64,000 nucleotides of DNA from Deltaproteobacteria bacterium. Lineage in GTDB: Bacteria; Desulfobacterota; DSM-4660; Desulfatiglandales; Desulfatiglandaceae. Positions 17,403 to 29,962 of this stretch are shown here, in pieces (position 1 is the first letter of the stretch; the number at the start of each line of letters is the position of its first letter). A model generated the notes under the pieces. The model saw nothing but the letters and a program-made list of their open reading frames with translations. It searched no databases and had not been told where the DNA came from. The translations under genes were made by a program, and so were the position numbers. The DNA lies in NCBI GenBank assembly GCA_021737785.1, contig JAIPDI010000022.1:1-64000 (forward strand). Reading direction: 5' to 3'.

Positions 17403-17449
17403 GGTTTTACATTTGTTTTACAAAACTTCTTTTCACTCTGCTGTATACT
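17403..17449 (+). promoter_or_regulatory. Promoter-like motif shared with the second radical SAM gene (copy 1)
   Basis: GGTTTTACATTTGTTTTACA occurs at 17403-17422, containing two TTTTACA boxes 11 bases apart, followed after a 20-base gap (counted from the A at 17423) by GTATACT at 17443-17449. The same two blocks with the identical gap occur at 22108-22154, just before the other radical SAM gene. Here the radical SAM start is about 500 bases further on, with repeats in between. The gap to the -10-like TATACT is too long for an ordinary sigma-70 -35 box, so an activator site is more likely. Confidence 0.5.
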
Positions 17450-17454
17450 AAAGC

Positions 17455-17566
17455 GGGTAACCGCAACCAAAGTGGCTCTCGAGTGACTTTTTATTATCAA
17501 GGGGGTTCGATGTCGCCAGACATCTGGAATGTTGGAATACTGGAATAATGGAAGGTTGGGAAAGGA
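17455..17566 (+). repeat. Dispersed repeat of about 112 bp, copy B
   Basis: Inverted partner of 2856-2968, nearly identical by eye. It ends in the 8-bp GGAATGTT/GGAATACT/GGAATAAT array. It starts 5 bases after the TATACT box of the shared promoter motif and may have been inserted between that promoter and the radical SAM gene. Confidence 0.8.
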
Positions 17567-17944
17567 ACCTGGATCACCCAGGAAAGGTGAAAACCTGGGA
17601 ATAAGGTGCTAAGTAGTGTCTAAACGAAAATCACCCCTTGGCGTGATTCAGGCACAATTGCGAATTGAGGAATTGCGAATTCAGAATTGATGGAATAACG
17701 TTGAAATTAATAACGTTGAAATTAATAAAACCAAGTTTCCGAGTCCGCCCTTTTTGGATTTTCGGGTTTTCGTTCAGACACTAAGTAGAAGTTTTCTATC
17801 ATGTCACGTCAATGAGGTCTTTTACTCATCGAAATACAGCGCTCGCCCCATTGTCACGCGGGGAAGGATAGAGGAAAATTTGGTGACGCGTTCTGGCATC
17901 TCAAATCCGTTTAAGAACCCATTCATTGAGAAGGAGAGACCATT
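17567..17944. other. Repeat-rich leader before the radical SAM gene
   Basis: This gap contains GAATTGAG/GAATTGCG-type short repeats at about 17656-17690 and an exact 15-bp tandem duplication at 17695-17709 and 17710-17724 (ATAACGTTGAAATTA). A second copy of the phrase TCAGACACTAAGTAG occurs near 17776. The ribosome site AAGGAGAG is just before 17945. I see no further gene. Confidence 0.55.
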
Positions 17945-19426
17945 ATGAATGTTCTTCTCATCTACCCGAGGTTTCCGGATACGTTCTGGTCCTTTAAGTA
18001 TGCGCTGAAATTCGTCCACAGAAAGGCGGCAAACCCGCCCCTTGGCCTGCTCACAATTGCGGCCATGCTGCCGGATGATTTTCAAAAGCGTCTTGTGGAT
18101 GTAAACGTGGACGACCTTAAGGATGAAGACCTTTCCTGGGCCGATATGGCGTTTATCGGCGGCATGGCTGTTCAACGGGATTCGGCACGGCAAATTATTG
18201 GGCGCTGCAAGGCCGCGGGGCTCAAGATCGTTGCCGGTGGCCCGCTCTTTACCAGCGAGTACGATCAGTTTGAAGATGTGGACCATTTTGTGCTGAATGA
18301 AGCCGAATTGACCCTCCCTTTGTTTCTCGCGGATCTGGCTAAGGGATGCGCCGAACATGTGTATGAGACGACCGAATTCTGCGACATTCGAAGGACCCCT
18401 GCACCCATGTGGGAGTTGATCGATTTGAAGAACTATGCCTCTATGAACATTCAGTTCTCCCGGGGCTGTCCGTTCAATTGTGAGTTTTGCAATGTGACGG
18501 CGCTGTTCGGGCATCGGGTCCGCTTCAAAACCGCAGAGCAGATGATCGCCGAATTGGATAGCCTTTACCGTAAGAAGTGGCGCGGGCCGGTATTTTTTGT
18601 GGATGATAACTTTATCGGGAACAAGGCCTATCTCAAATCCCATCTTCTGCCCGCGTTGACCCGATGGCAGAAAGGGAAAAAGCAAATCCCTTTTAACACA
18701 GAGGCCTCGGTCAATCTGGCCGATGACGAGCCGCTGATGGAGATGATGGTCAAGGCAGGGTTCGATGCGGTCTTCATCGGTATTGAAACGCCCAGCGAAG
18801 AAGGTCTGACCGAATGCAATAAACGACAAAACCGGAACCGGGACCTGATTGAGAGTGTAAAGCTCATCCAGCGGGCCGGGCTGCAGGTCCAGGGAGGCTT
18901 CATTGTCGGCTTCGACAGTGATACGCCCTCCATCTTTCAGCGGCAGATTGACTTTATCCAGAAAAGCGGGATCGTGACCGCAATGGTGGGGATACTCAAC
19001 GCCCCTCCCGGCACGGGGCTCTTCGAACGTATGCGAAAAGAGGGCCGTCTGACCGGCCTCATCTCCGGAGATAATGTGGACGGCACCACCAATATCCTTC
19101 CTAAAATGGGAATGGACGCGCTGCGTGAAGGGTACAACAGTATGCTGCGACATATTTACTCGCCTGAGCATTACTATAAAAGGGTGGTAACCTTTCTCCG
19201 GGAATATAAGAGACCAAAGGTCAGAACCCCACTAAGTTTTCAGCGTCTGATGGCAGTCCCCCGTGCAAGCATCCGCCTGGGCATTTTCGGCAAAGAGCGA
19301 TTCCAATATTGGAAGATTCTGTTCTGGACCCTTTTTCGGCGACCCAAGATGCTTCCGATGACCATTACGCTGGCGATCTATGGCTATCATTTCCGCAAAA
19401 TCTGCAGCCTGAAGATTACTCAGTGA
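17945..19426 (+). CDS. B12-binding radical SAM protein with DUF4070-type C-terminus
   Basis: 493 residues. An N-terminal cobalamin-binding Rossmann domain (NVLLIYPRFPDTFWSF; VAGGPLF; LNEAE) is followed by a radical SAM core with C175-x3-C179-x2-C182 (GCPFNCEFC). The C-terminal part resembles the DUF4070 region of class B-like methylases such as the hopanoid methylases, but no hopanoid genes are nearby. The product could be a methyltransferase or other radical enzyme; the substrate is unknown. It is preceded by AAGGAGAG. A second, divergent member lies 2.8 kb downstream with a similar promoter motif. Confidence 0.88.
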   Translation: MNVLLIYPRFPDTFWSFKYALKFVHRKAANPPLGLLTIAAMLPDDFQKRLVDVNVDDLKDEDLSWADMAFIGGMAVQRDSARQIIGRCKAAGLKIVAGGPLFTSEYDQFEDVDHFVLNEAELTLPLFLADLAKGCAEHVYETTEFCDIRRTPAPMWELIDLKNYASMNIQFSRGCPFNCEFCNVTALFGHRVRFKTAEQMIAELDSLYRKKWRGPVFFVDDNFIGNKAYLKSHLLPALTRWQKGKKQIPFNTEASVNLADDEPLMEMMVKAGFDAVFIGIETPSEEGLTECNKRQNRNRDLIESVKLIQRAGLQVQGGFIVGFDSDTPSIFQRQIDFIQKSGIVTAMVGILNAPPGTGLFERMRKEGRLTGLISGDNVDGTTNILPKMGMDALREGYNSMLRHIYSPEHYYKRVVTFLREYKRPKVRTPLSFQRLMAVPRASIRLGIFGKERFQYWKILFWTLFRRPKMLPMTITLAIYGYHFRKICSLKITQ

Positions 19427-19548
19427 ATCGAAAAAGGGGCGTAACAGCCCTACGATGTGACAATATCCCTCGAACCGGCCTTGTAGCTGATAAGTATACA
19501 GATGCAAGCGCAGAAACTGAGCCGCATAAAGTGAAGGGTGCCATTCTC

Positions 19549-19662
19549 ATGATGCACACGACTTCCATATCAAAAGAAAACGGCCAGTTCCCGGCCAGGG
19601 CCGATGATCTCATCCAGCGCATACGTCGCGAGGTCATCGCAGGCAAAAACGTCACAATGTAA
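19549..19662 (+). CDS. Possible 37-residue peptide or gene remnant
   Basis: An ATG-started frame ending QRIRREVIAGKNVTM, lying between the radical SAM gene and the small membrane protein. The sequence looks protein-like (amphipathic, charged) but no clear ribosome site precedes it. It may be the tail of a decayed gene. Not recognised. Confidence 0.25.
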   Translation: MMHTTSISKENGQFPARADDLIQRIRREVIAGKNVTM

Positions 19663-19680
19663 TTCAAGGAGGTATTGTCA

Positions 19681-20031
19681 ATGAAACCAGAAACTGCAGG
19701 AAAACTGAAGTATGGCGGTTGGGGTCTTGTTTGTGGGGCAGTGATTGCAATGATCATCGGCTTTGCGTGGGGGGGATGGACAACCTCCAGCACAACCGAA
19801 ACGATGAGCGAAGAAGCGGTCTTGGCGAGTCAGGCCGCGATCTGCGTCGCCCAGTTTATAAAGCAACCGAATCATGAGGAGAAACTTAAAGAATTAGAGG
19901 CATTGGATTCATGGAAGAGAGCTGAATTCATTAAAAAGGGTGGCTGGGGTAAAATGCCCGGACAGGAAGAGGCTGACTATGCTGTATGCCGAGCATGCGC
20001 CGATGGGCTTGAACTTCTTCTCAAAAAATGA
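19681..20031 (+). CDS. Small membrane-anchored protein, unknown
   Basis: 116 residues. One N-terminal TM helix (WGLVCGAVIAMIIGFAWGGW, about 14-33) is followed by a soluble helical domain with cysteines in AAICVAQFI and AVCRACADG. AAGGAGGTATTGTCA gives a strong ribosome site for the ATG at 19681. Orientation of the domain is not obvious; periplasmic is more likely. It follows the radical SAM gene and ends at a hairpin terminator. Not recognised. Confidence 0.75.
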   Translation: MKPETAGKLKYGGWGLVCGAVIAMIIGFAWGGWTTSSTTETMSEEAVLASQAAICVAQFIKQPNHEEKLKELEALDSWKRAEFIKKGGWGKMPGQEEADYAVCRACADGLELLLKK

Positions 20032-20041
20032 GTTGGCTGTT

Positions 20042-20071
20042 AAAGGTAACTCATATATGAGTTACCTTTTT
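20042..20071 (+). terminator. Rho-independent terminator
   Basis: AAAGGTAACTCAT and ATGAGTTACCTTT form a perfect stem around a short AT centre, followed by TTTTT. It begins 10 bases after the stop of the small membrane protein and closes the radical SAM transcript. Confidence 0.85.
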
Positions 20072-20120
20072 CAACAAAAAGGGAAGGTCGCTTTACCCGT
20101 TTCACCCCGAGCCGTGATGC

Positions 20121-20152
20121 TGGATATGGGTTTCTGGATACTGGATATGTGT
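20121..20152 (+). repeat. CTGGATA-type short repeat array
   Basis: Degenerate units TGCTGGATATG, TTCTGGATA and CTGGATATG. The same family occurs near 55921, 60165 and 60788. Confidence 0.6.
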
Positions 20153-20309
20153 AAAGAATCATGTTATTTTAACCAGCATTAAGGATCCGGAATCAAGCAT
20201 CACTCGATACCTTAAACACTATACACAATTCAAGTGGAGTCTCGGGGCCATATTATCAACAATGGGTAATGCCTGGATAATATGTTTTTTGAAAGGGAGA
20301 GGAGATCCG

Positions 20310-20429
20310 ATGGGAGAAAAGGGAAAGAAGGATAAAGGCAAACGCGAAGAACAGAAAAAGGGAAAACAAACACTAAAGGAGAAGCGGAAACAGAAAAAAG
20401 ATAAAACGAAATCGGTTTGGGAAAATTGA
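20310..20429 (+). CDS. Tiny lysine-rich protein
   Basis: A 39-residue protein (MGEKGKKDKGKREEQKKG at the start, ending KTKSVWEN), almost entirely Lys, Glu, Gln and Arg. AGGAGATCCG gives a well-placed ribosome site. Similar tiny lysine-rich proteins occur in other deltaproteobacteria, recalled from memory. It could bind nucleic acid or be disordered; function unknown. It is isolated within a repeat-rich gap. Confidence 0.55.
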   Translation: MGEKGKKDKGKREEQKKGKQTLKEKRKQKKDKTKSVWEN

Positions 20430-20483
20430 AACTGAAAATAAAACAAAAGGTCGGCTGATTGGTATGAAGGAAAGGACAAAAGG

Positions 20484-20524
20484 GCCCTAAGGCTGCCTGA
20501 CGGCCGCAACCAAACAGGTTTCAC
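20484..20524 (+). repeat. REP-like hairpin repeat, copy 2
   Basis: GCCCTAAGG, then GCTGCC-TGAC-GGCCGC, then AACCAAA and GGTTTCAC, matching the reverse complement of 131-170. A further CCGCAACCAAAACGG occurs at about 20607, so a second partial copy may follow. Confidence 0.6.
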
Positions 20525-20633
20525 CGAAGTCTCAGAAGCGTTCCGGACGGGCAAACTTCTTCGCACGTTGCAGAGAAGTTGCAGACAAAGAGTCTAACGG
20601 TGATATCCGCAACCAAAACGGCTGTGTGCTGCC

Positions 20634-20713
20634 CCGTCATTCCGGCATGCCCTTAGCCGGAATCCAGTCCCCCGTATTTCTGGATTCCGGCTAGAATCGT
20701 GCCGGAATGACGG
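20634..20713. repeat. Long imperfect palindrome (CCGTCATTCCGGC type)
   Basis: CCGTCATTCCGGCATG plus AGCCGGAATCCAG on the left pair with CTGGATTCCGGCT and GTGCCGGAATGACGG on the right, around a 12-base loop. This motif family is a common dispersed repeat in proteobacterial genomes; a half copy lies near 57857-57877. The remainder of 20714-20987 holds no gene I can support. Confidence 0.75.
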
Positions 20714-20987
20714 AAGGCTAAGCGTGCAGTGGAAGGATGGCCATATTTTCTTGTTTTTCATGACACAAGACTAGGGAATAAGGTACTGCTATGAACCCAG
20801 AAATGGGGGTCGAAATGGTGTAGAGGTCACTAACATTAAAACATTAACAGAGGTTGGCAGGGTTACCGAGGCGTCGGTTCTTGGCGCCGTCAAAGGCAGT
20901 GGCGGCTGCGGGCGGGTTCAGCAAATTCTGAGTGCATTGACTTTTCTGTGATGCCGCCACAGAGTTTTTTAGATAAGGAGTGCTGTT

Positions 20988-21815
20988 ATGTCTTTCATAG
21001 AAAACCTTAAGGCCAGAATCAAGGCCGACGGGCTCTTTCGGAAACTCGTTTCCACCATGAAAGAGCCGCCCGGAAAGTGGTGGGTGGACACGGTCCTCAT
21101 CCAGGAACTGCTCCATATGACGGATTTTGAGCACAAAAAATTCAGGGACCTTCAGCTCTACGTCCGTCCCATGGAAGGCGAGGTCATGGAGGTGTTGGTC
21201 TTCGACAACGAATTGGCCATTTACCACACGACCGTGGCCGACGTAGGCCTTCGCAAAAGCCCTTTCTGGCAGGAAATGATCAGTATTCGAAATATCAAGA
21301 AGATTATGAATCATCATGATGTGCTGGTGAGCACGGGGAAGGCGTCAATTGAGAGAATACACGCCAATGCCATCGCCCGGCTGGATCTCACGTATACCAG
21401 GGACGACCTGGCGCTGCTCCTGGAGGATGCGCGCAGGGGCCTGGAACGAAAAGCCATGGAGGAGGTACAGGAATCGCTGGATCTATTTGTCGACTTGCTG
21501 GCATTTGAGCCGATGGTTCTTGACGTTCTGGAGCGGGATCTACAGGTTTTTGCCGGGCCTGAGCATAAAGGCGGATCCGTCCCCCGGTTTGAGAACCTCC
21601 TCCTCTTCGACAGAGAAACCCTCTCCCTCGGTTTAAAGAAGGGTCCTTTTTCGCCGGAGGAGGATGTCGATCTTGCCTGGGTCATCCAATATGCCCGCGG
21701 TGAGAAAACCGCAGACCTCAAGGGCATGGATGTTTTCAACTTCCTGGCTGAACTGGCACTCGAAAAGGCCCAAAAGGGAAAAGGGGATACGGAGGGCCAA
21801 ATGACACACAGCTGA
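20988..21815 (+). CDS. Conserved-looking cytosolic protein, unknown
   Basis: 275 residues with a good start (AAGGAGTGCTGTT before the ATG). No TM helix, signal peptide or cysteine motif. The C-terminal half is helical with repeated acidic and leucine-rich stretches (ESLDLFVDLLAFEPMVLDVL). The middle SIRNIKKIMNHHDVLVSTGK is distinctive. I do not recognise the family. It is monocistronic, between two repeat-rich gaps. Confidence 0.75.
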   Translation: MSFIENLKARIKADGLFRKLVSTMKEPPGKWWVDTVLIQELLHMTDFEHKKFRDLQLYVRPMEGEVMEVLVFDNELAIYHTTVADVGLRKSPFWQEMISIRNIKKIMNHHDVLVSTGKASIERIHANAIARLDLTYTRDDLALLLEDARRGLERKAMEEVQESLDLFVDLLAFEPMVLDVLERDLQVFAGPEHKGGSVPRFENLLLFDRETLSLGLKKGPFSPEEDVDLAWVIQYARGEKTADLKGMDVFNFLAELALEKAQKGKGDTEGQMTHS

Positions 21816-21997
21816 TGATCTGAACGTCCGAGGCGTTACAATGCAGCAGCACTGTCAACGTGGGCCCCGAACCTTCTTATGATACGGATGAACATAATGT
21901 TCGGGGAGTCCTTTGTGATTTTCTGTCTGCTTCTTGCTAGTCTGGAACACCGGGTTTGAATATGAAACGTGTTCACCTTTAAAAAATCCTCTCCGTT

Positions 21998-22050
21998 TAT
22001 TGTCCAATATTCCACCCTTTCAATATTCCATCATTCCATTTTTAGGGCCA
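21998..22050 (-). repeat. ATTCCA-type short repeat array
   Basis: Degenerate units CCAATATTCCA, TCAATATTCCA and TCATTCCA, the complement of the GGAAT family at 2821 and 17520. The rest of the 21816-22107 gap shows no gene. Confidence 0.6.
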
Positions 22051-22107
22051 ACGGTTTTTCGCTCCCTAAAATCCATAATAATCAGTGAATTTCGGATATC
22101 TTTGACT

Positions 22108-22154
22108 GGTTTTACATTTGTTTTACAAGGTAATTCTTTACTTTGAGGTATACT
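22108..22154 (+). promoter_or_regulatory. Promoter-like motif shared with the first radical SAM gene (copy 2)
   Basis: GGTTTTACATTTGTTTTACA at 22108-22127 and GTATACT at 22148-22154, with the same gap as the copy at 17403-17449. It is 46 bases before the radical SAM start at 22201, a normal place for a promoter. The two TTTTACA boxes, one helical turn apart, look like an activator site. Confidence 0.6.
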
Positions 22155-22200: not shown

Positions 22201-23919
22201 ATGAAACTATTACTAAGTTCTGTATTCGGGCCATATGGGGTGGATGATGAATATGGCGAAAAAGAAAACAAGATGGAGCTCTTCCACAATCAGGTGACCC
22301 GGGAGCAGGGCATCTTTTCCTACAGATTCAATCATGGTAGCCAGGGGCTCTATTTTTTGGCGGAAAATATTGACATGCCCACAGCGGTGCTGGATTTTCC
22401 AAACTTTAAGCGATTCAAAAAAGAATTGAAAAAGGGATATGACTTTATCGGCATCAGCTTCATCATCCCCAATTTCGAGAAGGCAAAGGCGATGGCACGC
22501 GCCATTCGTGAATTCTCCCCCGAATCGAAGATCATTCTGGGAGGCCACGGCGTCAATATCCCGGATATCGAATCCATGATCGATCATGATTTCATATGCA
22601 AAGGCGAAGGCGTGTATTTTTTGAGAAGGTTGTTCGGGGAGAGGGAAGACAAACCCATCCGGCATCCGCTTCAATACAGCTCTTTTAACAGGCAGGTCAT
22701 GGGCGCGCCCTGGCCGTCCGACTCCGGCATCCTGATACCGGGCGTTGGATGTGCCAATAAGTGCCGGTTTTGCGCCACCTCCCATTTCTTTGGAAATTAC
22801 ATTCCATATTTGAAAACCGGCCAGGAGATTTTTGATGTGTGCTGCCGGTACGAGGATGAAAAAAATATCACGGAATTCGGCGTATTGGATGAAAACTTCT
22901 TAAAGATGAAGGATCGTGCCCTGGAACTGCTGGAGCTGATGGAAAAGAATGACCGTCATTTTAATTTTGCAATATTCAGCTCTGCTGAAACGCTTAAGAG
23001 TATCGGGGACCTGGATATCCTCGTGCGCATGGGGGTGACATTCGTGTGGGTCGGCGTTGAATCCAAAAAGGAGATTTATGCAAAAAACAAGGGCACTGAT
23101 TTTCAGGTTCTTTTCAAGGAATTAAAAAAGAGGGGGATCAGTGTTCTGGCGTCATCGATCCTGTTTCTTGAGGAACACGATCAAGATACGATCTGGGAAG
23201 ATGTGGATTTCGTCACCTCGCTCAATCCGGACTATGTGCAATTCGCACCGTTGGGACCGATTCCGGGGACCAAATTGTATGCTGATTATAAAACTCAGGG
23301 AAAGTTAATTGATTCTATTCCTTATAAATCCCAGCACGGTCAGAAGAAAATCTGGTTTCATCATCCCCATTTTACCAGGGATGAGTCCGAAGGCTTTCTT
23401 CGGCGTGCCTTTGAGAAGGATTATGAGAGAAACGGCGCTTCCATGCTGCGTTCCATAAAAACCGTTCTGGGAGGTTATGGTTATTGCATAAACCATCCGG
23501 ACGAACGCGTTCGAAAACGTTCAATCGAATACAAGAAGAGGCTTAAGATGACGCGATACTTTCTCACCGCGTCAACGCTTTATGTGAAAAACCAGCGGAG
23601 TGACGCCTTGCTGAGAGAAATTAAACAGTCATATGGTTCCGTATTCGGCAGGATGAATATCCCATCGCTGTTCGCATCAGGGCTGGTCATAATGTTCAGT
23701 GCCAAAGAATATTTGAGATGCCGCTTCCTGGGTGATCTGAGAGTGCCCAAGACATCCTATCTCTCCTTATACAAGGGTCACAAACCTGCAGCTCAATGGG
23801 CCGGGTTTTCACCTGCCCGTGGGAAGGGGCCGAAGAACCCCTATCCCTGGATAGGACACCCTGAGCCTCAGCCCGTGTTGAGCGTGGAGCACCATGCCGG
23901 GCACCGCCGTATATCTTAA
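22201..23919 (+). CDS. B12-binding-type radical SAM protein
   Basis: 572 residues. The N-terminal half resembles a cobalamin-binding domain (YDFIGISFIIPNFEKA; IILGGHGVNI; CKGEG). The radical SAM core has C184-x3-C188-x2-C191 (GCANKCRFC). It is followed by a long C-terminal region of unknown role with basic helices. AAGGGAG precedes the ATG. It is only distantly like the protein at 17945 but shares its upstream motif, so the two are probably co-regulated. The last 45 residues (after YKGHK) are proline/glycine-rich and look less conserved, perhaps a read-through into repeat DNA. Confidence 0.83.
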   Translation: MKLLLSSVFGPYGVDDEYGEKENKMELFHNQVTREQGIFSYRFNHGSQGLYFLAENIDMPTAVLDFPNFKRFKKELKKGYDFIGISFIIPNFEKAKAMARAIREFSPESKIILGGHGVNIPDIESMIDHDFICKGEGVYFLRRLFGEREDKPIRHPLQYSSFNRQVMGAPWPSDSGILIPGVGCANKCRFCATSHFFGNYIPYLKTGQEIFDVCCRYEDEKNITEFGVLDENFLKMKDRALELLELMEKNDRHFNFAIFSSAETLKSIGDLDILVRMGVTFVWVGVESKKEIYAKNKGTDFQVLFKELKKRGISVLASSILFLEEHDQDTIWEDVDFVTSLNPDYVQFAPLGPIPGTKLYADYKTQGKLIDSIPYKSQHGQKKIWFHHPHFTRDESEGFLRRAFEKDYERNGASMLRSIKTVLGGYGYCINHPDERVRKRSIEYKKRLKMTRYFLTASTLYVKNQRSDALLREIKQSYGSVFGRMNIPSLFASGLVIMFSAKEYLRCRFLGDLRVPKTSYLSLYKGHKPAAQWAGFSPARGKGPKNPYPWIGHPEPQPVLSVEHHAGHRRIS

Positions 23920-23968: not shown

Positions 23969-25009
23969 ATGGATGAAAGGGCCGGCCTATATCCTTTGAC
24001 AATACAGGTTCGACCGCCATACAGGTTCATACCGGGGTCGTGGGAAATGCGTCAAACCAAATGGTTTTTTCATCCGATTCTTATTTTCATCGCCTCTGTT
24101 GCGGCCGTGGCCCTGTCCCTTTTCCTTTATATCTACTGGTATGTGGAAGTCAGCACAGGCCTGAAAAGGGTATTGGAGAAGGCCAGCCTCGATCGCGATC
24201 AGGTCCTGGCTTCTCAAACCTGGGTGGTGATTCTGGTGCTTTCCATCCTTGTGGGAATCATTCTGTTGGGCATATTCATTATCTTTGTCTATAATCAAAA
24301 AACATTTCAGCTTTACCGTCTCCAGCGCAATTTTATCAACAATTTCACCCATGAGCTCAAGACCCCGGTCACCTCGCTGAAATTATATCTGGAGACGTTT
24401 CGAAAATACGAGCTTCCCCGGAAAGATCAGCTCAAGTATATCGGCTACATGGTTCAGGATGCGGACCGGCTGACCTATAATATCAACCGCATCCTGGACC
24501 TTGCGAGGATCGAGAGCAAGACTTATGAAGAAAAACTCGTAAAGGAGGATCTGGTTCAGGCGGTTGAGCAGTTTGTTGAAAAAAATCGTCATCTCTTCCA
24601 TGGCTGCGACATCCGGATTCACAATCCCACAGGGAGAGCCTTTGTATACCCCATCCGTCCCGCCTTGTTTGAAATACTTCTGATGAATCTGTTCACCAAT
24701 GCGGTCAAGTACAATGCGTCCGAAGCCCCCCGACTGGATATCACCTTCGAACCCAAGGGAAGGGGCCTGCACATCTGTTTCGCGGACAACGGCATCGGGC
24801 TTCCAAAGTCGGAATTAAGGAAAGTATTCAAAAAATTTTACCAGATCGGACGCTCGGACAACATGTCGGCCAAGGGGACAGGCATCGGCCTCTATCTGGT
24901 GGAGAGCATCGCCCGGTTTCACAAGGGGAGGATGACGGCCGAATCGAAAGGGAGTGGGGAGGGCTCTGTTTTCTGCCTGATTCTGCCCCTGAACACCGGC
25001 CGATCCTGA
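23969..25009 (+). CDS. Two-TM sensor histidine kinase
   Basis: 346 residues. Two TM helices (about 35-58 and 85-108) flank a very short periplasmic loop, so the sensor input is probably within the membrane or from a partner. A HisKA helix (NFINNFTHELKTPVTSLKLY) and HATPase_c (ADNGIGLPKSEL, GTGIGLYLV) follow. GGGGAT is 8 bases before the ATG at 23969; an alternative ATG is at 24047. The response-regulator gene follows directly and is its partner. Confidence 0.88.
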   Translation: MDERAGLYPLTIQVRPPYRFIPGSWEMRQTKWFFHPILIFIASVAAVALSLFLYIYWYVEVSTGLKRVLEKASLDRDQVLASQTWVVILVLSILVGIILLGIFIIFVYNQKTFQLYRLQRNFINNFTHELKTPVTSLKLYLETFRKYELPRKDQLKYIGYMVQDADRLTYNINRILDLARIESKTYEEKLVKEDLVQAVEQFVEKNRHLFHGCDIRIHNPTGRAFVYPIRPALFEILLMNLFTNAVKYNASEAPRLDITFEPKGRGLHICFADNGIGLPKSELRKVFKKFYQIGRSDNMSAKGTGIGLYLVESIARFHKGRMTAESKGSGEGSVFCLILPLNTGRS

Positions 25010-25026
25010 GGGAAATGAGGGATATC

Positions 25027-25764
25027 ATGGATGACGCCGCTAAAACCCGCATTCTGGTGGTAGAAGATGAGACGCACCTGGCCGAAGGGCTGAAGCTGAA
25101 CCTGTCCCTGAAGGGATATGAGGTGATGATCGCCCCGGATGGGATCTCGGCCCTGCAAGGGTGGAAGGAATGGCAGCCGGACCTGATCGTATTGGACATC
25201 ATGCTCCCGGGAATTGACGGGATCTCGGTGCTTCGAAATATCCGTCTTGAGGACGAACGGGTCCCGATCCTGATCCTGTCGGCCAGGGGGGACCCTGATG
25301 ACAGGGTAAAAGGGTTTTCGTACGGGGTGGACGATTATCTTGTCAAGCCCTTTAACCTGGATGAGTTTCTGCTCCGCGTGGACCGGCTTCTAACCAGGGG
25401 GGCCTGGTCCCGGGAGGGGCCCGGTTCAGGCGAAAACATCGCATCGTCACTCCCCAGAATTTACACTTTCGGGGATAACCGGATCGATTTTGAGACCTTG
25501 AAGGCCGATGGCCCGTCCGGTCGTATCAGTCTGACCGAACAGGAAATCCGGCTTCTGAGACTGTTTATCGCCAACCGCGGCAGACCCCTTTCGAGAAGAA
25601 AGCTCCTGGAAATCGGCTGGGGGTATACCGGAGGAACCACCACCCGGACCGTGGATAATTTTATGGTGAGATTACGAAAATATTTTGAACCCGATCCCAA
25701 AAACCCAGTCTACTTCAAAAGCCTTCGCTCGGTGGGATATGTCTTTGATCACGACCCGGAATAA
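25027..25764 (+). CDS. OmpR-family response regulator
   Basis: About 245 residues. The receiver has an acidic pair in ILVVEDETHLA, phospho-Asp in LIVLDIMLPGIDG and Lys in LVKPFNLDE. The winged helix follows (SLTEQEIRLLRLFIANRG; RTVDNFMVRLRKYFE). The ATG at 25027 follows GAGGGATATC. Its 3' end overlaps the start of the dehydratase activase by 26 bases, so the pair and the activase are one transcript and the regulator may control it. Confidence 0.92.
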   Translation: MDDAAKTRILVVEDETHLAEGLKLNLSLKGYEVMIAPDGISALQGWKEWQPDLIVLDIMLPGIDGISVLRNIRLEDERVPILILSARGDPDDRVKGFSYGVDDYLVKPFNLDEFLLRVDRLLTRGAWSREGPGSGENIASSLPRIYTFGDNRIDFETLKADGPSGRISLTEQEIRLLRLFIANRGRPLSRRKLLEIGWGYTGGTTTRTVDNFMVRLRKYFEPDPKNPVYFKSLRSVGYVFDHDPE

Positions 25765-28700
25765 TACGGCGGATCCGCGGGTCCTGGGAATCGATATCGG
25801 ATCCGTTGCCATATCTCTGGCTGAAATCACTCCTGAAAAAGAAATCTGCAGAACCGCCTATCAATTTCATCACGGCAATATCGCAGAAACCTTCACCCAA
25901 ATGATGAATGATTTCGATTTGGAGCGGATTTGCGGCATTGCCGTCACATCTTCAACCCCTTCGATCCTTCGGGCCGGCCGGCAGTATGACAACCGGGTTG
26001 CCGTAATCGAGGCGGCCCGTCATTTTCACAAGAAGATCGGCGCCATTCTGATTGTCGGCGGTGAGGCCTTCGGACTGATCGGTTTTGACGAGGACGGCCA
26101 TTACCGCAGTTTCAGGACCAACACCTCATGTGCGGCCGGGACAGGGAGTTTTCTGGATCAGCAGGCACGACGGCTGAATCTGGAAAATGCCGGGGCATTG
26201 GGTGAAAAGGCCTTCAGTAACAGAGGAAGTATACCGAAAATCGCCTCGAGGTGTGCTGTTTTTGCAAAGACCGATCTGGTTCACGCCCAGCAGGAAGGCT
26301 ATACCCTTGAGCAGATCTGTGACGGCCTTTGTTATGGCCTGGCCAAGAACATCGTGGATACGCTTTCTCTGGACAGGGACGGGTTTACCCCGGTCATTTT
26401 CACGGGCGGCGTATCCAGGAACAGGGCCGTGGTTCAGCATGTCCAAGCCATCAGCGGAAAAGAACTCATCGTAGATGATACCGGCGTTTACGGGGCTGTG
26501 GGAGCGGCATTTCTCATGCTTTCCGAATGGGACCAAGACGACGTTTCGCGGTTTACCTCGGTGGATGATATGCTGCGGCGAGAAATTGTTCAGAAAAAAT
26601 ATTTCCATGACCCGCTCACCCTGATCCTTTCCGATTATCCGGAGTTCACCGGAGGTGAGACATATGAATATGCCGTCTGTGATGCCGGTGTGTTGATCCC
26701 CGTAGAGGTGGATATTTATGAGCCCCCGGCGCCTGCATCCGACTGCAACGTGGTCCTGGGCCTCGATATCGGCTCCACAAGCACCAAGGCGGTTCTCCTG
26801 ACTCCGCACAACCGGGTCCTGGCCGGTTTTTACACAAGCACTGCCGGGAGACCGGTGGCCGCGGTTCAGCGGCTCTTTTCATCCATTGATAACATGGCTG
26901 AAAAGAAGCACATCGGGTTGCGGATCACAGGCGCCGCAACCACGGGGTCGGGGAGGAAATTCGCCGGAAAGATCATCGGGGCCGACATGGTCATCGACGA
27001 GATTACGGCCCATGCCAGGGCCGCCTGCGAGATTGATCCGGACGTGGACACCATCATCGAGATCGGCGGACAGGATTCAAAATTCACCACCCTGAAAAAC
27101 GGAAGGGTCACCTTTTCCATCATGAATAACGTGTGCGCCGCCGGCACCGGGAGCTTTATCGAGGAACAGGCCCGGAAACTGGGATGTCCTTTGGCGGCGT
27201 ATTCGTCGAGGGCCGAGGGGAGGAGATCCCCCATTGTCAGCGACAGATGCACCGTGTTTATGGAAAGGGATATGAACCACTATCTCTCCGAAGGCTATAC
27301 CGTGGATGAAGTGCTTGCCTCCGTGCTTCATGCCATCAGGGAAAATTATCTCACCAAGGTCGCCATTGAAGGGAGCATTGGAAAGACTATCTTCTTTCAG
27401 GGGGCAACGGCAAAAAACAGGGCACTCGTGGCCGCCTTTGAACAACGGCTTCAAAAGCCCATACATGTCTCCAGATACTGCCATTTAACCGGGGCATTGG
27501 GGGCCGCACTTACCCTAACGGATCAAGGGATCAGGGCGACGGACTTTCGCGGCATTGCCCTCCATAAAAAGGCGATCCAGGTAACATCGGAAATATGTGA
27601 GCTGTGCACCAACCACTGCAAGATAACGGTGGCCGATGTGGAAGGTGAAAAGGTGGCCTTCGGATTTCTGTGCGGCAGGGAATACGATACCCAGCATTAC
27701 GTGAACAAGAACCCTTCCGGCTTCGATCTGCTCAGAGAGAGGAAACGGATTTTCTCTTTGAAAACCTATCAGGCGTATCCCGAGGGGATCACCATCGGCC
27801 TTCCCGCAAGTCTCCATGTCTACGAGGACCTTTCTCTCTGGAAGAAGTTCTTTGACGAGCTTTCCATCAACACCGTGACCAGTGAAAATTACAGCGATGC
27901 CCTTAAGGAAGGAAAACACCTTGCGAACGCCGAGTTCTGTGCGCCGATGGCAGCGCTGCACGGGCATGTCCATTATCTGATGGACAAGGCGGATTATGTT
28001 TTTCTTCCCTTTTACCTGGAGAAAAAGGCCGATGAAAAGGGAGTGCGCCGGCAATATTGCTACTACACTCAGTTTTCACCCTCTCTGATTTTCGTTTCAG
28101 GGGATGAACAGGTGAAAGAAAGACTTCTCACCCCCCTGGTCCATTCGCTTCATGGTTCGATCCATACAAAACTCGAACTCCACGCCATGCTCAAATCCCT
28201 CACCGGCGTTCACATCGGTTTCCTGGATGTTTCCAGGGCCTATGACCGGGCCTGTGAATACAAAGCGTCCTGTGTCGAGCAGTGGAAGAAGATTTATGAA
28301 AGCCAAGCCCAAGGGCGAAAGGACCTGGCCGTGGTCCTGCTGGGAAGGCCCTACACGATTCTTTCCGGATACATGAACAAGGGGATCCCCGATATTTTTG
28401 CGTCCCTCGGGATCCGGGTCTTTTTCCAGGACATGCTGTCCTGTTCCGATGAGGCGGTGGCGCCGGTTCAAAAGCTGTTACACGAGATTCACTGGCATTA
28501 CGCATCGGAAATCCTGAAGGCGGCGCAGGGGGTTGCCCTGTCTGAGGGGGTGTACCCGGTTTTGGTGACGTCTTTCAGGTGTTCACCGGATTCCTTTGCC
28601 GTCGACTATTTCAAGAAGATCATGGAGGCCCACGAAAAGCCATATCTCATTCTTCAACTGGATGAACACGCGTCCAGCGTCGGGTATGAGACACGGATTG

Positions 28701-29962
28701 AAGCCGGCATCCGATCTTTTGAAAATCACTTTTACGGCCGGCCGGGAAATAAGGCCGCGGTTTACACCCCGTCACTATCCCCGGTGAGAGAAAAAAGTAT
28801 TTCCGGAAAGACCCTGGTGATTCCAAACTGGGACGACATCACCCTGAAATTAATGGTTGCGAATCTTAAAAGAGGGGGGATAGACGCCAGATTGATGGAG
28901 GAATCACAAACAGGAATTCAGGAAAGCCTCCGTTACAACACGGGCCAGTGTATTCCTCTGAACATCATTGCCCAGGAATTTGTCGATTATGTGAAAACCC
29001 ACGATCTGGATCCTGAAAAGACCCTGCTCTGGATGGTCTCGTCACAGATCGCCTGCAATATCGGTATGTTTCCGCATCATTTGAAGAGCCTCCTCTGCTC
29101 GTACGGCAAGGGGATGGAAAAGGCGCAGGTCTACGTGGGGGCCATGTCATTCATGGACATTTCATTGCGGCTGCCCGTCAACACCTATTTTGCATATATG
29201 TTCGGAGGTCTTATCCGGGAAATCGGATGCAGGATCAGGCCCTATGAAAAGGAAAGGGGAGCAACGGACCGGGTGATCCAAGGGGGCGTGGATATCCTGG
29301 AGGATGCCTTCCTCGGAAAAAGATCAAAAGAGGAGGCCCTGGCCGATGTGATCTCCTCTTTTCAACGCATTGAAATATCCTCCGAACGAAAACCCAAGGT
29401 GGCGATTTTCGGCGATTTGTATGTGCGGGACAACGATGTGATGAATCAGGATCTCATCCGCTTCATTGAAAGCCATAACGGTGAAGTCATCGTGACCCCC
29501 TACAGCGCCTATGTGCAGATGATCGCCCGGGCCTATCTGAAGAAGTGGTTTTTTGAGGGGAGATATCTGGAGGTGCTATCTTCAAAGGCGTTGCTTGCCA
29601 CCGTGACCCGGATGCAAAAGATATATCAAAAGCACTTCGCTAAAATCCTGGAAAATCCCGCGCCGCAATACGATGAAGACCCGGCGCGGATCCTCTCTGA
29701 ATATCACGTCAGGATTGAGCACACGGGGGAATCAATGGACAATCTGCTGAAGATATTCTATATTAAGCAGAACCACCCGGATGTTTCCCTGTTTGTTCAA
29801 ACAAATCCTGCTTTCTGCTGTCCTTCGCTGGTTACTGAGGCGATGGCCAAAGAAATAGAAAAAAGGACCGGGGTTCCCATTCTATCCATCACCTACGACG
29901 GGACCTCCACCAACAGGAACGAAGCGATCATCCCGTATCTCACCTATCTGAACAAACATTAA
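25739..29962 (+). CDS. Large acyl-CoA dehydratase activase (BadF/BadG, DUF2229, HgdB-like fusion)
   Basis: 1,407 residues. Two ASKHA ATPase domains occur in tandem (about 13-255 with LGIDIGSVAISLA and CAAGTGSFL; about 337-590 with LGLDIGSTSTKAV and CAAGTGSFI). A cysteine motif CELCTNHCKI near 620 follows, then a DUF2229-type region (LPASLHVYEDL, near 685) and a dehydratase-subunit-like region to the end. Activases of this family drive ATP-dependent electron transfer into 2-hydroxyacyl-CoA dehydratases or benzoyl-CoA reductases through a [4Fe-4S] cluster. Such giant fusions are known, but their substrate is not. No separate dehydratase genes are adjacent. Confidence 0.9.
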   Translation: MSLITTRNNTADPRVLGIDIGSVAISLAEITPEKEICRTAYQFHHGNIAETFTQMMNDFDLERICGIAVTSSTPSILRAGRQYDNRVAVIEAARHFHKKIGAILIVGGEAFGLIGFDEDGHYRSFRTNTSCAAGTGSFLDQQARRLNLENAGALGEKAFSNRGSIPKIASRCAVFAKTDLVHAQQEGYTLEQICDGLCYGLAKNIVDTLSLDRDGFTPVIFTGGVSRNRAVVQHVQAISGKELIVDDTGVYGAVGAAFLMLSEWDQDDVSRFTSVDDMLRREIVQKKYFHDPLTLILSDYPEFTGGETYEYAVCDAGVLIPVEVDIYEPPAPASDCNVVLGLDIGSTSTKAVLLTPHNRVLAGFYTSTAGRPVAAVQRLFSSIDNMAEKKHIGLRITGAATTGSGRKFAGKIIGADMVIDEITAHARAACEIDPDVDTIIEIGGQDSKFTTLKNGRVTFSIMNNVCAAGTGSFIEEQARKLGCPLAAYSSRAEGRRSPIVSDRCTVFMERDMNHYLSEGYTVDEVLASVLHAIRENYLTKVAIEGSIGKTIFFQGATAKNRALVAAFEQRLQKPIHVSRYCHLTGALGAALTLTDQGIRATDFRGIALHKKAIQVTSEICELCTNHCKITVADVEGEKVAFGFLCGREYDTQHYVNKNPSGFDLLRERKRIFSLKTYQAYPEGITIGLPASLHVYEDLSLWKKFFDELSINTVTSENYSDALKEGKHLANAEFCAPMAALHGHVHYLMDKADYVFLPFYLEKKADEKGVRRQYCYYTQFSPSLIFVSGDEQVKERLLTPLVHSLHGSIHTKLELHAMLKSLTGVHIGFLDVSRAYDRACEYKASCVEQWKKIYESQAQGRKDLAVVLLGRPYTILSGYMNKGIPDIFASLGIRVFFQDMLSCSDEAVAPVQKLLHEIHWHYASEILKAAQGVALSEGVYPVLVTSFRCSPDSFAVDYFKKIMEAHEKPYLILQLDEHASSVGYETRIEAGIRSFENHFYGRPGNKAAVYTPSLSPVREKSISGKTLVIPNWDDITLKLMVANLKRGGIDARLMEESQTGIQESLRYNTGQCIPLNIIAQEFVDYVKTHDLDPEKTLLWMVSSQIACNIGMFPHHLKSLLCSYGKGMEKAQVYVGAMSFMDISLRLPVNTYFAYMFGGLIREIGCRIRPYEKERGATDRVIQGGVDILEDAFLGKRSKEEALADVISSFQRIEISSERKPKVAIFGDLYVRDNDVMNQDLIRFIESHNGEVIVTPYSAYVQMIARAYLKKWFFEGRYLEVLSSKALLATVTRMQKIYQKHFAKILENPAPQYDEDPARILSEYHVRIEHTGESMDNLLKIFYIKQNHPDVSLFVQTNPAFCCPSLVTEAMAKEIEKRTGVPILSITYDGTSTNRNEAIIPYLTYLNKH

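Follow-up and report, generated by a model that had tools for sequence, protein, structure and literature searches.

In DesK–DesR and other membrane-sensing systems, a kinase consisting mostly of membrane helices goes together with a lipid-modifying target. The same combination seems to be present at the locus described here, whose kinase and regulator, however, belong to different families and whose enzymes use a different chemistry. This locus lies in a window (i.e. the whole stretch of 64,000 nucleotides that was analysed) from a sulfate-reducer-type member of the Desulfobacterota and contains two copies of a direct-repeat box, the genes for two B12-type radical SAM proteins (RS1 and RS2) and those for a histidine kinase (HK) and a response regulator (RR).

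Read on its other strand, the box is TGTAAAA-N4-TGTAAAA, i.e. 11-base direct repeats that fit exactly the WalR/VicR (YycF) consensus of Firmicutes, which passages of PMC4168254 give as TGTWAH-N5-TGTWAH and, for S. mutans VicR, as TGTWAHA-N4-TGTWAHA. The RR is likewise an OmpR-family regulator, but with 147.9 against a cut-off of 340 it stays far below the YycF model, just as HK, with 110.1 against 725, does for WalK. Moreover, HK is without a long sensor region, the phylum is a different one and the apparent targets are lipid-type genes rather than cell-wall hydrolases. TTACA direct repeats also characterize the HLR1 element of cyanobacterial RpaB, given as (G/T)TTACA(T/A)(T/A)NN(G/T)TTACA(T/A)(T/A) in passages of PMC11633204, and among NCBIfam models the RR matches RpaB best; yet the 171.8 bits stay below the cut-off of 330, HLR1 has a period of 10 instead of 11 bases and the role of RpaB is in light acclimation. 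The pho box of PhoB/PhoR, described in passages of PMC3333781 as two 7-base repeats with a 4-base spacer and for D. vulgaris as a (c/t)GT(n)AC repeat, shares with our locus the 7-4-7 layout, an OmpR/PhoB-type regulator and a PhoR-like kinase core, but differs in its half-site, in the absence of phosphate genes among the targets found here and in scores below the cut-offs (RR, 153.1 of 296.2 for PhoB; HK, 130.1 of 334.2 for PhoR). Literature searches, which included passages of PMC10697835, PMC3333781, PMC4168254, PMC9275681 and PMC11633204, yielded no matching described system.

We propose, with a probability of roughly 0.8, that the box is the operator of an autoregulated two-component system whose genes lie in this very cluster, with a regulon apparently devoted to membrane-lipid modification.

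Two boxes in one gene cluster

The sequence GGTTTTACATTTGTTTTACA occurs without mismatch at 17403–17422 and 22108–22127; no third site is present in the window with up to three mismatches, and none appeared in 100 dinucleotide shuffles of it. Within these copies, box 1 (17405..17422, + strand) and box 2 (22110..22127, +) are identical direct repeats TTTTACA-N4-TTTTACA, with the 11-base start-to-start distance already noted in the initial annotation. Each is followed 20 bases downstream by GTATACT (17443..17449 and 22148..22154, both +), the presumed −10 elements of the RS1 and the RS2-HK-RR promoter. Over the two 47-base stretches (17403–17449 and 22108–22154) identity is 77%; the two-part motif that had been reported as identical is so in its 20-base box, the length of the gap and GTATACT, whereas most of the 20 intervening bases differ. 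The fixed-spacing genome scan suggested at that time finds TTTTACA-TTTG-TTTTACA-N20-GTATACT only twice in the 5.3-Mb genome, i.e. before RS1 and RS2, and the looser pattern TTTTACANNNNTTTTACAN{14,24}TATACT also has exactly two matches genome-wide, both in this cluster (reversed control, 0). A GTATA-type −10 at exactly 20 bases from the box is kept in all nine co-directional sites from six genomes. Shuffles, the controlled genome scan and the occurrence of the box in other genomes rule out a chance origin of the motif, which we infer to be a promoter. Sites with up to two mismatches are as frequent in the host genome as those of a control (43 versus 45), which gives no sign of a larger regulon built on weak boxes there; of seven such loci inspected, none has the full layout.

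Pfam matches assign the genes behind the boxes, all on the + strand. RS1 (17945..19426) is a B12-type radical SAM protein with Radical_SAM and DUF4070 above the Pfam cut-off, and RS2 (22201..23919) also contains the Radical_SAM domain; their B12-binding matches, at 28.6 and 27.1 bits, are slightly below the cut-off of 32.1. With this domain make-up RS1 may resemble HpnP and HpnP-like proteins, which combine B12-binding, radical SAM and DUF4070 domains and for which, according to passages of PMC10697835, function is proven only within the HpnP clade. RS1 and RS2 are only 22% identical over about 200 residues (match at 18464–19084), as their earlier description as dissimilar implied, and therefore recent gene duplication is ruled out as an explanation of their common box; together with the cross-genome comparison below, this supports the view that the motif marks co-regulation.

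RS2 is followed by HK (24047..25009), RR (25015..25764) and a large BcrAD/BadFG + DUF2229 CoA activase-type protein (25739..29962), the ATG of which, in an open reading frame that opens at 25685, overlaps RR by 26 bases. The HK open reading frame begins at 23969, the start at 24047 having been picked by comparison with relatives. By simple hydropathy, HK is a membrane-embedded sensor kinase, with two membrane helices, a short loop of about 32 residues and no large sensor domain, and 62 of 67 kinases analysed in this way have two helices and a loop of 31–33 residues. The RR, the proposed binder of both boxes by its Pfam domains and co-occurrence, combines a receiver domain with Trans_reg_C next to a kinase with HisKA/HATPase_c, as is typical of the OmpR/PhoB family, and a putative direct-repeat operator with a 10–11-base period in front of the presumed target genes is in line with this family. 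The regulator pair in the RS2 operon, its co-occurrence with the box and a wider regulon go beyond the initial annotation.

Gene families facing the box in relatives

In 49 RR-bearing genomes, covered by a scan that drew on 50 of 80 RR loci (L163 was left out), 70 exact boxes were found in 41 genomes, as against one for the control. We classified 64 of these sites, omitting six (in G109, G098, G118, G117, G091 and G100) that are HK-RS2 loci inspected before. With gene-family models that were in part seeded from the sites themselves, 58 of the 64 sites face HK or a gene of the RS1, RS2, acyltransferase, NMO/FabK-like, CoA-activase or HlyIII families, and at sites away from HK-RR a lipid-class gene or HK is faced in 37 of 43 cases. 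RR-lacking genomes outside families f35 and f25 had such genes at none of 13 places examined; these belong to 39 places chosen from the phylum site list, namely those in family f35, those in genomes with an RR and some of the remainder. The comparison supports co-regulation, but a regulon of radical SAM genes, as first envisaged, is too narrow given these wider target families. The host genome contains only two boxes and lacks acyltransferase and NMO targets. It is thus the relatives that supply the lipid theme, their gene families making the regulon look like one for membrane-lipid modification; a 629-residue neighbour in one of them (L261) has no Pfam match.

It is conceivable, though we consider it unlikely, that the common theme is acyl-CoA or carbon metabolism, with RS1 and RS2 acting, for example, on a cofactor or a peptide. 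Catabolic roles are likewise known for CoA activases and NMO-type enzymes, neither RS1 nor RS2 passes an NCBIfam cut-off, and no solved relative of RS2 is found at E 0.01 (RS1 has three, all weak). However, at least three acyltransferase families recur as targets, as do HlyIII-type membrane proteins (by Pfam), and little of the sensor lies outside its helices, both of which point to membrane lipids.

Proposed control of the boxes by the adjacent regulator

A −10 element downstream of a box and without an evident −35 is the usual look of activator sites. This is the arrangement in the window's group, where the −10 follows at 20 bases and no −35 hexamer was seen by eye 17 bases from it, and in the TGTAAAA direction a −10 at 36–37 bases is found in 14 of 64 sites. 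Both observations argue against the RR acting as a repressor, a possibility that we regard as improbable even though in some relatives (L150 and L171) no more than 20 bases separate the box from the HK start codon, a position suited to repression.

That it is the adjacent RR which acts at the boxes is suggested by co-occurrence. Among the 85 genomes of the order, a close RR orthologue (68% identity or more) and the strict box TTTTACANNNRTTTTACAA coincide, both being present in the same 11 and neither in the other 74; in the first 61 genomes, they shared the same eight. Among 80 named RR loci, 38 have an exact box (control, 0) and 50 a box with at most one mismatch, mostly directly before HK. 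Of 22 further RR loci (30 minus eight without complete HK plus upstream DNA), none of which has a close box, five have a two-mismatch site and 13 nothing better than four mismatches. Across the phylum, an exact box is missing from five of 21 genomes with a close RR and present in 54 of 373 without, part of these being chance matches in AT-rich DNA. Family f35 has no RR that passed E 1e-60 among only six candidates scored per genome, yet nine of its 12 boxes adjoin CoA activases or acyltransferases, so another regulator may use the box there. One could go further and assume that the boxes belong to another OmpR-family regulator, whose gene lies elsewhere and whose DNA preference is the same, and that the adjacent HK-RR pair is merely one of its targets; the box does fit a consensus common to several such regulators and also occurs before another RR-HK pair in two genomes (G188 and G152; loci L315 and L316). 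But the agreement of box and RR, present or absent, in all 85 genomes of the order, and the position of the box ahead of the RR's own operon at most RR loci, make this rather improbable as well.

Between the first −10 and the RS1 ATG lie 495 bases, which bear out the earlier remark that repeats had pushed this copy about 500 bases from its gene; most of this interval is taken up by two dispersed repeat elements, inserted where the −10 ends. The first (17447..17588) has copies elsewhere in the genome that are 96–99% identical; the second (17607..17787), with copies mostly 81–86% identical and near-inverted repeats at its ends (AGTGTCTAAACGAAAA / TTTTCGTTCAGACACT), appears MITE-like by eye. Despite these elements directly downstream of box 1, the notion that the motif arose by chance or was carried to both places within a dispersed repeat can be dismissed, as the repeats start at 17447–17450, past the box, have many copies versus two boxes in the genome, and the box is kept in other genera.

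A possible circuit for lipid remodelling in anaerobes

According to the operator model that we prefer, phosphorylated RR would bind head-to-tail to the two TTTTACA half-sites, which share a helical face, and would activate transcription from the GTATACT −10 located 20 bases downstream. Box 1 would drive RS1, and box 2 RS2-HK-RR-CoA activase; with the RR being encoded in the operon under box 2, the system would regulate itself. As the sensor is almost all membrane helix outside its kinase core, the signal is likely to be membrane state, and RS1 and RS2 are predicted to modify lipids. The cluster would then be the local form of a regulon that is spread through part of the Desulfobacterota and whose members may be mostly lipid-type genes, i.e. 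acyltransferases, NMO/FabK-like flavoenzymes, CoA activases, HlyIII-type membrane proteins and B12-type radical SAM enzymes.

In its widest form, for which we see even odds, this would be an undescribed self-regulating regulon of anaerobic Desulfobacterota, in which a near-purely membrane-embedded sensor of membrane state governs lipid chemistry that needs no oxygen: acyl chains would be acted on by B12-type radical SAM enzymes, alongside a high-energy CoA activase, acyltransferases and FabK-like flavoenzymes. Such a system would be an anaerobe counterpart of desaturase control.

Overall, our data suggest a control circuit, so far unnamed, whose genes seem to take part in the remodelling of membrane lipids. 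If this is true, research on lipid remodelling in sulfate-reducing and syntrophic bacteria would gain a regulator, a box to search for and a list of genes, and two orphan families of B12-type radical SAM proteins, one of them HpnP-like in its domain make-up, would be set in a lipid context. It would also mean that a single box can serve either way round, at a different distance from the −10 element in each orientation.

Box, presumed promoter and gene clusters in the window

The initial annotation had proposed that an identical two-part promoter motif precedes both B12-type radical SAM genes, RS1 and RS2, and the motif is indeed there. A direct repeat, TTTTACA-TTTG-TTTTACA (the 'box', a proposed operator), is located at 17405-17422 before RS1 and at 22110-22127 before RS2, in both cases followed at an equal distance of 20 bases by the presumed -10 element GTATACT (17443-17449 and 22148-22154). 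A genome-wide scan found this two-part pattern at just these two sites in 5.3 Mb. The box with two mismatches allowed occurred at 43 sites versus 45 in a reversed control, i.e. without excess.

RS2 (22201-23919) is followed by genes for a histidine kinase (HK), an OmpR/PhoB-type response regulator (RR) and a large BcrAD/BadFG plus DUF2229 protein (activase). Because HK and RR are only 5 bases apart and the activase gene, with its ATG at 25739, overlaps RR by 26 bases, RS2-HK-RR-activase reads as a single operon. RS1 (17945-19426) has DUF4070 and Radical_SAM domains, with a B12-binding match slightly below the cut-off of the domain search; B12-binding, radical SAM and DUF4070 also make up HpnP-like proteins, according to an excerpt of PMC10697835. 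In the relative G011, one box is followed by RS1, a gene of a 275-aa type, HK and RR, and RS1 itself can therefore head an HK-RR cluster. The 275-aa protein of the window (20988-21815) has no Pfam or NCBIfam match, and its gene accompanies RS1 and HK-RR in the close relatives G011 and G001. Between RS1 and this gene lies an imperfect inverted repeat of 34 bases (CCGTCATTCCGGCATG...; 20634-20713), with arms 12 bases apart.

The RS1 leader contains two dispersed repeats, one (17447-17588) with several copies at 96-99% identity in the genome, the other (17607-17787) with many copies at ~81-86%; the ends of the latter are nearly inverted, and by eye it resembles a MITE. A 486-base query over both returned 45 matches. 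In G011, box and RS1 are 167 bases apart. Since the first repeat starts only where the -10 element ends, the RS1 promoter may still be functional with a leader of ~490 bases.

Co-occurrence of box and response regulator

The strict box TTTTACANNNRTTTTACAA was found in 8 of 61 genomes (11 sites, control 0), and RR of at least 68% identity in the identical set of eight. In the whole order (85 genomes), box and RR share one set of 11 genomes, which hold 14 box sites (Fisher's test, 5e-14, a value that is too small, the genomes being related). A twelfth genome, G045, passed E 1e-40 in the RR search with matches of merely 38-40%. G045 and G042 have RS2 relatives (73% identity) without this RR; the loci around these (L008, L009) showed no box at 0-2 mismatches. 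Both genomes hold looser-spacer boxes elsewhere, and the sole pair examined, in G042, had no lipid-class gene (RS1, RS2, acyltransferase, NMO/FabK-like, CoA-activase or HlyIII family) beside it. G053 carries two box-RS2-RR copies on separate contigs (C145, C175), with RR 83% and 79% identical to that of the window.

Most kinases (62/67) have two predicted helices N-terminal to the H-box, spaced 31-33 residues, the second of which lies 15-22 residues from the H-box, and the C-terminal RR stretch TRTvDNFiVR.RkYFE is almost invariant in 73 members. We infer that the signal sensed by HK is membrane state.

Proposed lipid-class targets and box layouts

Among 80 named RR loci (RR 60-88% identity; titles mostly Deltaproteobacteria, Desulfobacterales, Desulfobacteraceae or Syntrophaceae), an exact box is present at 38 (control 0), and a box with up to one mismatch at 50. 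In 49 genomes from this set, 70 exact sites are spread over 41 genomes (control 1), and 58 of the 64 classified sites have HK or a lipid-class gene facing them at no more than 350 bases. Of the 43 sites that lie outside the HK-RR locus, 37 have a lipid-class gene in this position, i.e. 15 acyltransferases, 10 NMO-type genes, five CoA activases, two HlyIII and five sites at three RS2 genes (Pfam names were assigned to family representatives); the other six do not face such a gene (L231, L234, L255, L263, L286, L292). ORFs of at least 150 aa were lipid-class in 52 of 82 cases when adjoining a box, a figure inflated by some family models being seeded from these same sites, and in 4 of 121 when not. 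On a contig titled uncultured Oleiphilus (L224), far outside the system's usual range, a box-HK-RR set like those described here lies beside an HlyIII gene, reflecting transfer or wrong binning.

In the window's group, the box is directed at its gene, with GTATA[ACT]T or GTATTCT at exactly 20 bases (9/9 sites, six genomes); the five sites in this order whose spacer is AAAG have no such -10 at this distance. Outside this group, the box usually lies between a lipid-type gene and HK-RR, which are transcribed divergently. Of the 54 classified sites that have a lipid-class gene, 48 have it oriented along TGTAAAA, and a TATAAT-like -10 occurs at 36 or 37 bases at 14 of 64 sites. Two loci (L271 in G123, L288 in G119) have two boxes 24 bases apart, i.e. 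four half-sites, before an unlinked RS2 gene.

Known systems and possible further users of the box

On its other strand, the box matches the WalR/VicR consensus published in PMC4168254, as excerpted, but the window's RR and HK score far under the model cut-offs for WalR/WalK and PhoB/PhoR, as does RR for RpaB. Judged by sequence, the system appears to work like such known systems, yet is not assigned to any of them, and the searches of open-licence literature yielded no description that fits it.

Across 394 phylum genomes, RR at E 1e-90 or better is present in 21, 16 of which have the box, as do 54 of the 373 others (Fisher's test, 2e-9). Neighbours were examined at 39 box places. Lipid-class genes adjoin 9 of 12 places in RR-bearing genomes (including two in G289, with an RR of just 50% identity) and 0 of 13 in genomes that lack the RR and belong to neither family f35 nor f25. 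At the two f25 places (L315 in G188, L316 in G152), the box lies directly 5' of a different RR-HK pair, RR first, a layout that points to a further autoregulated system sharing this box. In three f35 places, a kinase of ~500 aa is encoded on the box's other side. Family f35 (L303-L314) yielded no RR passing E 1e-60 but has lipid-class neighbours at 9 of 12 places (five CoA activases, four acyltransferases). The link between box and lipid-class genes therefore extends beyond this RR, and the f35 boxes may be served by another regulator.
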